Below the pieces are notes generated by a model. That model was not told where the DNA came from. It saw only the letters and a list, made by a program, of their open reading frames with translations, and made no database searches. From assembly GCF_009856825.1 (NCBI RefSeq), contig NZ_WVTD01000005.1, positions 186,001 through 250,000 on the forward strand: DNA of 64,000 bases, written 5' to 3'. The translations under genes were made by a program, and so were the position numbers. Origin of the DNA: Novosphingobium silvae. GTDB taxonomy: Bacteria; Pseudomonadota; Alphaproteobacteria; Sphingomonadales; Sphingomonadaceae. Below, one piece after another: positions 23,776 to 25,241 of this stretch. Numbering within the stretch: the stretch's first letter is position 1; each line of letters begins with the position of its first letter.

Positions 23776-24113
23776 CGGCGACCGTCGCCTACAAGATCCT
23801 CACCGGCGCGCAGCTGGCGCAGCTGCTCGCCGATGGGACGTTCGCCGGGGCGCCGGTGGATATCGCGGATGGCTATATCCACCTCTCCACCGCCGGGCAG
23901 GTGCGCGGCACGCTGGACAAGCACTTCGCGGCGCAGGACGACCTGCACCTTGCCGCGGTGGATCTGGCCGCGCTGGGCGATGCGATCCGATGGGAAGTCT
24001 CGCGCGGCGGTGCGCTGTTTCCGCACATCTATGCGCAGTTGCCCCTGTCCGCCGTCATCGCGCACGCGCCGGTCTCGCGGTACGCCGGCGGCGAGCCCGT
24101 GCTTCCTGCCTGA
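23772..24113 (+). CDS. DUF952 family protein
   Basis: 113-residue protein of the DUF952 group: YKILTGAQLAQLLADGTFAG, then IADGYIHLSTAGQVRGTLDKHF, ending in LFPHIYAQLPLSAV. The IHLS and FPHIY motifs are characteristic. The biochemical role is unknown; the fold is related to ADP-ribosyl transferase-like domains (family knowledge, uncertain). The ATG overlaps the gyrA stop (ATGA), so it is translationally coupled to gyrA. Confidence 0.88.
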   Translation: MTATVAYKILTGAQLAQLLADGTFAGAPVDIADGYIHLSTAGQVRGTLDKHFAAQDDLHLAAVDLAALGDAIRWEVSRGGALFPHIYAQLPLSAVIAHAPVSRYAGGEPVLPA

Positions 24114-24132
24114 GGGCGGAATCCGGCGCATC

Positions 24133-24161
24133 TTGACAGATATAACCAATTAGGTTATAAT
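24133..24161 (+). promoter_or_regulatory. Exact consensus sigma-70 promoter
   Basis: TTGACA at 24133-24138, a 17-base spacer, and TATAAT at 24156-24161: a 12/12 match with optimal spacing, in an otherwise GC-rich genome. It begins 20 bases after the stop of the DUF952 gene. The predicted start site falls near 24169, exactly at the first base of a perfect stem-loop. No protein-coding frame follows within a sensible distance, so it most likely drives a non-coding RNA. Confidence 0.85.
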
Positions 24162-24168
24162 CCGCGCC

Positions 24169-24238
24169 ATCGATTACGATCGATCAAGCGGCGGAACGGA
24201 AAGAAGCGCGTAGCTGACGCTTCCTCCCGCTTCTTTTC
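24169..24238 (+). ncRNA. Candidate small RNA, about 70 nt, with CCUCC loop
   Basis: Predicted transcript of the consensus promoter. The 5' end is a perfect hairpin, AUCGAU-UACG-AUCGAU (24169-24184), with a UNCG-type tetraloop. After a GCGGCGGAAC linker comes a stem formed by 24198-24208 with 24228-24238 (one G-U pair), whose 3' arm contains UUUU like an intrinsic terminator. The 19-base loop carries GCUUCCUCC, complementary to ribosome-binding sites; 24203-24208 could pair instead with 24218-24223. Size, anti-Shine-Dalgarno loop and terminator resemble the alphaproteobacterial SuhB/alpha-r14 and cuckoo RNA class, which act with Hfq. This is resemblance of layout only. Confidence 0.6.
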
Positions 24239-24575
24239 GCAAGCGGTCGGCGCCCGGCAGCAGCACCGGTGATTGCCGCAAGAGGATGCGTGGACGAAGA
24301 TGAGGGTATGCCCTCAGGGAAGACGGCCTGGACGCGAGCCCTGCCCGTCACCCCCACGCACCGCACGGGCCGAGCCCGGGAGAGCAAGGCCGCTCCCGGG
24401 CCGTTCGCAAACGAGAGCCGACCGGCAGCGCCCGCGTGATGCCCGCGAGCAACAATACCAGCGTCGACCGCTTTTCCGTCCGCTGAACTTTCCTCTCCCG
24501 GCGTTATCCCGCACTCGCCAGCGGGCGATCAGGCTTGTCCGAAGATGGCGGCAGTAGCCGAGGCTGAGGCCCGGA
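24239..24575. other. Gene-free region with further hairpins
   Basis: About 340 bases between the candidate sRNA and the convergent YhhN-family gene. Two perfect hairpins are visible: TGAGGG-TATG-CCCTCA at 24301-24316 and GCCCGGGAG with CTCCCGGGC at 24374-24401. Neither has a U tract. Open frames on both strands show no recognisable protein. It may be an extended 3' part of the sRNA locus or a second structured RNA; otherwise I see nothing. Confidence 0.5.
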
Positions 24576-25241
24576 TCATGTAAAGTCGTCCCGCATCCGC
24601 AGCTCACCGGTGACGCCCGTGGCCAGCACCAGGTTGCCGATGTAGAACAGCGGCCACGCCGCGAGCGAGAGGATCGGTGCAGGAGCACCCGCCAGCGCGC
24701 CCAGCGCCGCTATGCCCAGCACGTTGCCGGCCCCGATCAGCGCCGCGCCAAGCCCTACGCGGGAGCGCGCGAAAGTGCTGATCCATGCGGCCGCCGCCAT
24801 GCCGCCCAGCGCCAGCCCCAGAAACAGCGGCACGCCCACGCCCGCCCGGTCCGCCGCGAAGAAGCAGAGCAGCGGCGTGCCCAGCGTCAGCGCCAGTGCC
24901 GCCGCGCGCCTGTCCGCGTCCATCACCGGCCGCCGGTGGGCCAGGAACAGGCCAAGGCCCACGAGATAGCCCACCAGCAGCAGGTTCAGCGCAATCAGCG
25001 GCATCGTCTCCAGCAGCCCGGCGCCCAGCCCTTCCAACACCAGCATCCCCGCAAGCGAGCGCGTGTCGCTTCCCCGGTGGCGCAGCGCGGCGTAGATCGC
25101 CAGCAGCACCAGCGCTCCGCCTCTCAACACCATCAGGTAGAGCCCCGGCGTCTGCCCGCCCTGCAGCAGCAGCCATGCCAACGCGCAGGCCATGCTCGCC
25201 AGTAGCCAGGGGCGGCGTTCGATCAGCGCACGCTTGGGCAT
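24576..25241 (-). CDS. YhhN family integral membrane protein (lysoplasmalogenase-like)
   Basis: 221-residue protein with about eight hydrophobic segments and the family features ALRHRG after the second helix, [16 protein letters not shown] and a C-terminal [15 protein letters not shown]. The YhhN/TMEM86 family includes lysoplasmalogenases that cleave vinyl-ether lysolipids; activity in bacteria is known for few members. The start is the ATG giving [15 protein letters not shown]; the 18-codon upstream extension overlaps the divergent trmFO promoter. It is divergent from trmFO. Confidence 0.8.

Follow-up and report, generated by a model that had tools for sequence, protein, structure and literature searches.

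The forward strand of the window, the whole 64-kb stretch of Novosphingobium silvae DNA that was analysed, carries downstream of a DUF952 gene an element that comprises a promoter and a predicted structured RNA gene. The preliminary description had pointed to a TTGACA-N17-TATAAT promoter with a 12/12 consensus match, and this promoter is indeed present on the + strand at 24133-24161 and is unique within the window. The pattern TTGACA-N16..18-TATAAT has a single match in the 64-kb window and none in 100 shuffles. Between 20000 and 28000 it is the sole promoter-like site (shuffle mean 0.4). A perfect 19-bp palindrome inside the promoter (24141-24159) is absent from that description. The features of the element DNA are:

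24133-24541, + strand: whole element, promoter plus structured RNA gene, a family A copy of about 410 bp
24133-24138, + strand: -35 hexamer TTGACA; TTGAC has a C before it in 22 of 23 copies of the same genome
24156-24161, + strand: -10 hexamer TATAAT, by sequence match
24141-24159, + strand: perfect palindrome TATAACC-AATTA-GGTTATA, covering spacer and -10
24144-24156, + strand: core operator AACC-N5-GGTT, a core also found 5' of XRE genes and of some gene transfer agent (GTA) clusters

The site had been read as a single locus with a transcript of 65-75 nt. Neither part of that reading holds. The stretch 24133-24238 is not the unit, because the conserved element of ~400 nt continues to about 24541, and at least 23 copies lie in the N. 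silvae genome. The 3' edge was set where near-identical copies diverge and is accurate to about 20 nt either way. The site is thus the 5' end of a multicopy structured RNA, not a ~70-nt sRNA.

Secondary structure of the element RNA

Comparison of aligned copies establishes that the + strand encodes a conserved RNA secondary structure, with a predicted outer helix, a long-range helix (P1), a P2-P4 domain and a 3' pseudoknot. Its parts in the window copy, with two hairpins near the 5' end, are:

24169-24184, + strand: 5' hairpin ATCGAT-TACG-ATCGAT with a UACG loop, by folding
24190-24194, + strand: outermost helix, 5' strand GGCGG, pairing with 24476-24480 (helix 1; 100% paired, two-sided changes in 2 of 5 pairs)
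24197-24239, + strand: hairpin 2 (the CCUCC hairpin), 12-bp stem 24197-24208 / 24228-24239
24241-24253, + strand: P1 long-range helix, 5' strand AAGCGGTCGGCGC (helix 3)
24284-24293, + strand: P2, 5' strand GGATGCGTGG (helix 4; 97.6% paired, two-sided changes in 4 of 9 pairs)
24302-24315, + strand: P3 hairpin GAGGG-TATG-CCCTC (helix 5; two-sided changes in 4 of 6 pairs)
24322-24349, + strand: P4 hairpin, GACGG 24322-24326 / CCGTC 24345-24349, with the conserved GCGAGCCC within (helix 6; two-sided changes in 5 of 8 pairs)
24354-24362, + strand: P2, 3' strand CCACGCACC (alignment A1)
24461-24473, + strand: P1 long-range helix, 3' strand GCGTCGACCGCTT (A1 and the cross-family P1 table)
24476-24480, + strand: outermost helix, 3' strand CCGTC (alignment A1)
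24500-24525, + strand: 3' H-type pseudoknot, GGCG 24500-24503 / CGCC 24516-24519 and CCCGC 24508-24512 / GCGGG 24521-24525

Alignment A1 holds 14 family-A-like elements from eight genomes, five of them from the N. silvae genome. Sixteen elements had been prepared, and two shorter forms (L128 and L078) were left out. RNAalifold predicts 61 base pairs on A1, 29 of which show compensatory double changes. For scoring, the pseudoknot was written in instead of a competing 4-bp helix. With it, 96.2% of the cells are paired as compared to 86.5 +/- 0.7% in shuffled alignments, and none of 500 shuffles was as good; slid versions of the fold reach 38-53%. Two-sided changes occupy 88 cells versus 28.4 in the shuffles, which ignore the relatedness of the 14 sequences. 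The comparison across A, B and other families covers P1 and the pseudoknot only.

The H-type pseudoknot ends 49 elements of different species and subfamilies. These are the sequences that pass a strict pseudoknot test among 192 distinct promoter-pattern sequences, viral and truncated ones included; matches to the promoter pattern that were listed from beyond Sphingomonadales were not considered, being attributed to chance or to unrelated uses of the pattern. In the layout a GGCG is followed, after a few nucleotides, by a 4-8-bp stem and by a loop with a CGCC that pairs with this GGCG. Forms of the stem include CCCGC/GCGGG, GTCCGG/CCGGAT, CGTCCGC/GCGGATG and TTCCGC/GCGGAG. The stem alone is not decisive, with 91.7% paired against a permuted mean of 86.1%, a level equalled by the best of 1000 permutations. 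The GGCG/CGCC pairs are uninformative by themselves because all four never vary. The pseudoknot GGCG can also pair with an upstream CGCT (A1 columns 395-398, 414-417 and 432-435; RNAalifold), and the predicted RNA 3' end may switch between two folds.

Of the 49 elements, 47 have P1 at the homologous motif, and L142 and L303 gave unrelated helices. Its strands lie in the first 30-110 nt of the predicted transcript and just 5' of the pseudoknot, ~125 to 365 nt apart. In the core, compared over 29 distinct rows, eight positions are paired in all, with a CG/UA exchange at one. The two outside positions are GC, CG or AU/UA and are paired in 26 and 25 of the 29 rows. Over 13 columns 90.2% of P1 is paired, against a row-permuted mean of 78.9% and a maximum of 83.6% (1000 permutations), a pairing that is partly owed to the method because P1 was located by maximising it.

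The two 5' hairpins of the preliminary description are where it placed them. The UACG hairpin occupies 24169-24184, and the second hairpin holds GCUUCCUCC in its loop and UUUU in its 3' arm. Folded alone, 24168-24245 (78 nt) has ordinary stability (z -1.0; 29 of 200 shuffles were as good). A hairpin at the position of the first is of variable length, judged by eye, in the folded copies of the same genome and in L002 and L003; L160 and L123 have no equivalent. In hairpin 2 the stem letters vary between families and the pairing is kept, and the CCUCC loop is not conserved. Promoter and stems, whose conservation had been proposed as a check on the site, are kept in other copies and species. The region was also described as free of protein-coding sequence, and it does appear noncoding: only short open frames overlap it on the + strand. 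Among 14 copies in the same genome the longest forward frame varies from 32 to 125 codons, in a comparison where one copy is truncated and several frames run past the end of the stretch.

The search that had been suggested against covariance models, RF00519 included, returned no Rfam family that reaches its gathering score, either for the window or for 20 element loci. A permissive scan of 24050-24600 returned two snoRNA hits below the cut-off, both at 24524-24569 and the best with an E value of 0.93. That the RNA forms a structured class is nearly certain.

Copies, loci and distribution of the element

In a search of 61 genomes with 24113-24260, 14 of 37 candidates in the N. silvae genome were scored, the window copy counted. 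Among the scored matches L007 reaches 96%, two short ones 87-90% over 40-46 nt and the others 69-72%. Five other genomes gave one match each, two of them long. The pattern AACCNNNNNGGTTATA has 28 strand-hits in the N. silvae genome vs 0 for the control. At least 23 copies there bear the exact operator, 14 of family A (that of the window copy) and nine of family B. This is a count of operator sites matching elements that were read, and some copies are cut by contig ends. All 23 begin with TTGAC-N6-AACC-N5-GGTT and continue past the operator as one of two related sequences, family A or B. Two further places are marked by the pseudoknot pattern; both lack the exact operator, and one is within 230 nt of a contig end.

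The copies are scattered over the contigs. Identity among ten close family-A copies is 85-97% (mean 92%) between AACC and the element end, and their flanks are 28-30% identical over 100 nt on each side, which is chance in this ungapped comparison. Elements of this close set are 415-421 bp long. The copied or exchanged unit seems to start at the AACC operator, because the ten copies agree by only 46% over the 6 nt that separate TTGAC from AACC. TTGAC, with a C before it, is invariant in all ten, and the -35 would be kept through target choice or selection. L001 and L007, the closest pair, remain alike for ~25 nt past the usual 3' end (window 24541-24565) and then diverge. In several copies of KLAP68, a metagenome genome, a REP-like hairpin (GGGTCAAGCCCGGG or CTGAAACAAGTTCAGC, by eye) is present shortly 5' of the -35 (L096, L127, L128, L088, L143 and L164).

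The ends of the element were compared for the marks of transposition. Terminal inverted repeats were sought without gaps in one copy (L008), where 9 of 30 positions agree with either choice of 5' end. For a target site duplication, the longest strings shared by the flanks of ten copies are 3-7 nt, with no common length or place. The marks of a MITE-type transposable element, inverted termini and a target duplication, were thus not found in the copies compared.

The DUF952 gene is present in 48 of 59 genomes, and 30 of its loci were fetched, that of N. silvae included. Downstream of the gene, 28 of the 29 relatives read are without an intact element, and in 15 of these relatives the same gene still follows within reach. 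The gap after DUF952 is occupied by a family-B element in G028 and by an apparent remnant (by eye) in G031. Elsewhere, loci with common flanking genes on one or both sides bear elements in at least two species, sometimes of different subfamilies. Such groups are L015/L002/L121, L080/L122/L142/L340/L353 and L018/L335/L336. Our reading is that these loci are old, that copies within a genome exchange their contents, and that elements have also been gained and lost. A similar locus pattern would be expected of a mobile element that prefers certain sites.

Across 397 genomes of the order the pseudoknot pattern has 79 hits in 13 genomes, and the reversed pattern used as control has one. Two or more hits occur in eleven of the 13, and other families of the order gave zero hits among the genomes drawn. 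Thirty of these pseudoknot loci were fetched. The exact palindrome is present in 23, one mismatch in two and no site in one, and four are cut by a contig end. The exact palindrome is therefore found in 23 of the 26 loci with enough upstream sequence, where six of the 30 (L339, L341, L350, L352, L361, L363) lie in N. silvae or G193 and belong to a type of place that the promoter had already revealed. In the 23 loci the exact AACC-N5-GGTT lies 226-569 nt upstream of the pseudoknot, preceded by TTGAC in 22, a few at N5 spacing. A search that begins from the pseudoknot thus recovers the operator, which indicates that promoter, palindrome and fold belong together.

Plasmid and phage records contain no blastn match to the window copy, and the element as phage or plasmid cargo was rejected on this ground. 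None of 70 viral contigs with the promoter pattern is among the family-A profile hits or the pseudoknot-test hits. Four viral contigs with the pseudoknot pattern have no operator in the available upstream sequence (up to 700 nt; 67 nt in L424). L424 is a 6.2-kb 'viral' contig on which two ClpB genes face apart in mirror image, with the element pseudoknot at both ends; it is probably misassembled from a bacterial genome and looks misfiled as viral.

The probable XRE regulator and a possible gene-transfer-agent link

The N. silvae genome has one clear XRE homologue (C33:70293-70853, HTH_3 by Pfam), and AACCAGATCGGTT lies 12 nt upstream of its start codon. The same operator is thus 5' of both the XRE gene and the RNA genes in this genome. 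A site just 5' of the XRE start codon looks like self-repression and connects the palindrome with the XRE protein. Sixteen genomes were considered: 13 had matched the pseudoknot pattern, G031 was included for its confirmed element, and G066 and G150 matched the promoter pattern only. The XRE gene is present in 16 of 16, so in all 14 with confirmed elements, and in 13 of the 16 the exact palindrome lies 12-18 nt before its start codon. Within the 14 confirmed-element genomes the upstream site is exact in 11, has one mismatch in one and is absent from two.

The XRE gene is far more widespread than the RNA (35 of 41 genomes). Thirty XRE loci of relatives were fetched and 29 scored, L280 being left out; the exact site is upstream in 18 and the other 11 are without the exact form. 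The sites make it likely that the XRE protein switches the RNA family. A terminase-small-subunit-like HTH protein was also considered as the regulator. The palindrome is directly 5' of its gene in L119 and L129 and near its start in L239. The site occurs in four of 30 homologue loci, three times at a neighbouring GafA-like gene, and the protein was dropped because the site is rare there while the XRE gene carries it. In unrelated bacteria (L067, L074, L083, L094, L146, L149) the spaced pattern lies 5' of short genes that resemble HigB/RelE-type toxins by eye, and other XRE-type antitoxins may use a similar operator.

In three genomes from other families of the order AACC-N5-GGTT lies between divergent XRE-type and GafA-like genes, beside terminase genes. 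Pfam confirms DUF6456 in one of the three. In PMC9638019, homologues of GafA, a GTA activator, are annotated as DUF6456.

A possible link to GTAs is also seen in N. silvae. The site C11:31082 precedes an RcGTA-like cluster (L304, G000 C11:30800-50000), with the AACCTATTAGGTT site ahead of the promoter. By Pfam the cluster has terminase, portal, S78 protease, capsid, DUF2460, BR0599 and Rcc01698_C. The arrangement is AACC-N5-GGTT, 7-8 nt, TTGAC and then usually a GGTACATA-like -10, and it recurs in about half of the TerL loci of the genus that were examined. The exact site is upstream in 12 of 29 such loci, and of the 17 without it three more have one mismatch in the same place. A palindrome 7-8 nt 5' of the GTA -35 is in the position expected of an activator. 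Ten further TerL loci, all from genomes picked for elements or the promoter pattern, have the exact site in one and one mismatch in the same place in one.

Twelve of the 14 element genomes have one TerL match. In these 12, where the match is whole, four have the exact site (G000, G031, G034, G405) and G193 has one mismatch. G028 has nine pseudoknot elements and no TerL match, and G151 has TerL in split pieces only; a GTA is not found wherever the RNA is. Conversely, the GTA marker Rcc01698_C is far more widespread than the RNA (118 of 197 genomes of the order). The strict promoter pattern is in eight of these 197, seven of them with the marker. The GTA site is present in some loci but uneven. 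In part of the group the RNA and the GTA thus appear to be under a common regulator, and neither needs the other. We regard the GTA link of the RNA family as weak to moderate.

Alternative explanations and meaning

OLE, GOLLD and ROOL are large RNAs, some with phage or stress links. The element RNA resembles them in being large, ornate and apparently noncoding with a conserved fold. Unlike them, it is ~400 nt long, has many copies per genome and an XRE-type operator in the promoter, and is confined to one family of the order among the genomes drawn. It has no match to their Rfam models. Homo-oligomers are reported for all three in the available part of PMC12286853.

SuhB (alpha-r14, RF00519) has a conserved CCUCC-type loop. 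The cuckoo (CcsR) RNAs of Rhodobacter are several related copies under a shared regulator, adjacent to each other and each with a CCUCC-rich loop. Both LhrC and cuckoo RNAs are short. The element has no covariance-model match to SuhB, and its CCUCC is not conserved; its copies, dispersed over contigs, do not fit the cuckoo RNAs either. Membership in both groups was rejected. For LhrC of Listeria the available part of PMC4132741 describes several related copies under a shared regulator. The element is likewise multicopy under an apparent shared regulator, but its fold is ~400 nt long.

RogA is a repressor of the XRE class. With the proposed XRE repressor and the pairing of an XRE gene with a divergent GafA-like gene in genomes of other families, the system described here is similar to RogA. 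In the RogA/GafYZ system the repressor controls the Caulobacter GTA (PMC9632790 and PMC11150451, in part). GGAA-N4-TTCC repeats of a promoter region are apparently tied to RogA in the available part of PMC9632790, whereas the operator here is AACC-N5-GGTT. By this passage the motifs differ, and identity with the RogA site was rejected to that extent. The regulon as described in the available parts of PMC9632790 and PMC11150451 has no RNA family. The RNA family is not described in the available parts of these two papers or of PMC10688885, PMC11109978, PMC8632094 and PMC9638019. On current evidence, set against Rfam 15 and the open-access papers searched, this is a new structured RNA class; its function may be of a known kind.

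We rate it somewhat better than an even bet that a new multicopy RNA family, switched by the XRE protein in an XRE-gated, phage-derived stress programme, has one of its copies at this site. The original proposal, a ~70-nt Hfq-dependent riboregulator of the SuhB/cuckoo type with an anti-Shine-Dalgarno CCUCC loop, is now barely credible. The window copy does have the promoter, the two hairpins and the CCUCC, but CCTCC is in the 5' region of only five of 31 elements and absent from L007, the closest copy. Rfam gives no match, and P1 ties the 5' region of the window copy to sequence ~210 nt downstream. Another reading makes the DNA the active part, with scattered operators titrating the XRE protein and setting a threshold for its other targets. 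The numbers would suit it, since the genome has at least 23 element operators vs one XRE site and one GTA site. However, a decoy would not require a -35/-10 promoter, nor an RNA fold of ~400 nt preserved through compensatory changes, and we consider titration very unlikely.

A stronger competitor, although still an unlikely one, is a selfish non-autonomous mobile element that is incidentally transcribed, with an RNA or DNA fold that serves its own spread and a site of the host regulator borrowed for expression. The element is similar to mobile or repeat sequences such as MITEs in being multicopy, dispersed and structured with unrelated flanks. The near-identity of the ten copies between flanks at chance, the apparent start of the copied unit at AACC, the patchy, lineage-specific amplification (13 of 397 genomes) and the 28 of 29 relatives without an intact element downstream of DUF952 all favour mobility. 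Unlike in MITEs, inverted termini or a common target duplication were not found in the element, some of its loci are common to species, and it has its own regulated-looking promoter. The window copy is without a blastn match in plasmid and phage records, and fold and promoter are strongly conserved. Occupation of some same-flank loci across species fits old loci and exchange, although the flanks may be paralogous.

For the XRE-switched RNA family the promoter and the fold suggest that the elements are transcribed, and the identity and position of the operator point to repression of the RNA genes by the XRE protein. The XRE protein would bind the predicted operator AACC-N5-GGTT and repress its own gene and the RNA genes, where the operator lies over the -10. 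It would act on the GTA promoter from upstream, in an activator-like position in some species. When it leaves the operators, all copies would fire together, and a large amount of structured RNA would be made in one pulse. This RNA would most probably act in trans, by binding protein or by self-assembly, in the XRE-gated phage-derived stress programme, and exchange between loci would keep the copies alike. The molecular job of the RNA is a guess.

A narrower and rather improbable version makes the RNA a working part of the GTA programme. Here an XRE-gated pulse from two dozen loci would assemble or scaffold something for making, releasing or surviving GTA particles. To our knowledge, no structured RNA class has yet been assigned to a GTA regulon.

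The predicted operator and its predicted regulator provide a handle on the family, as deletion of a single gene could be used to look for the conditions of expression. Should the GTA link hold, an RNA layer would be added to a gene-transfer programme otherwise described through proteins. The patchy class is also a good case for the gain, exchange and homogenisation of multicopy RNA genes.
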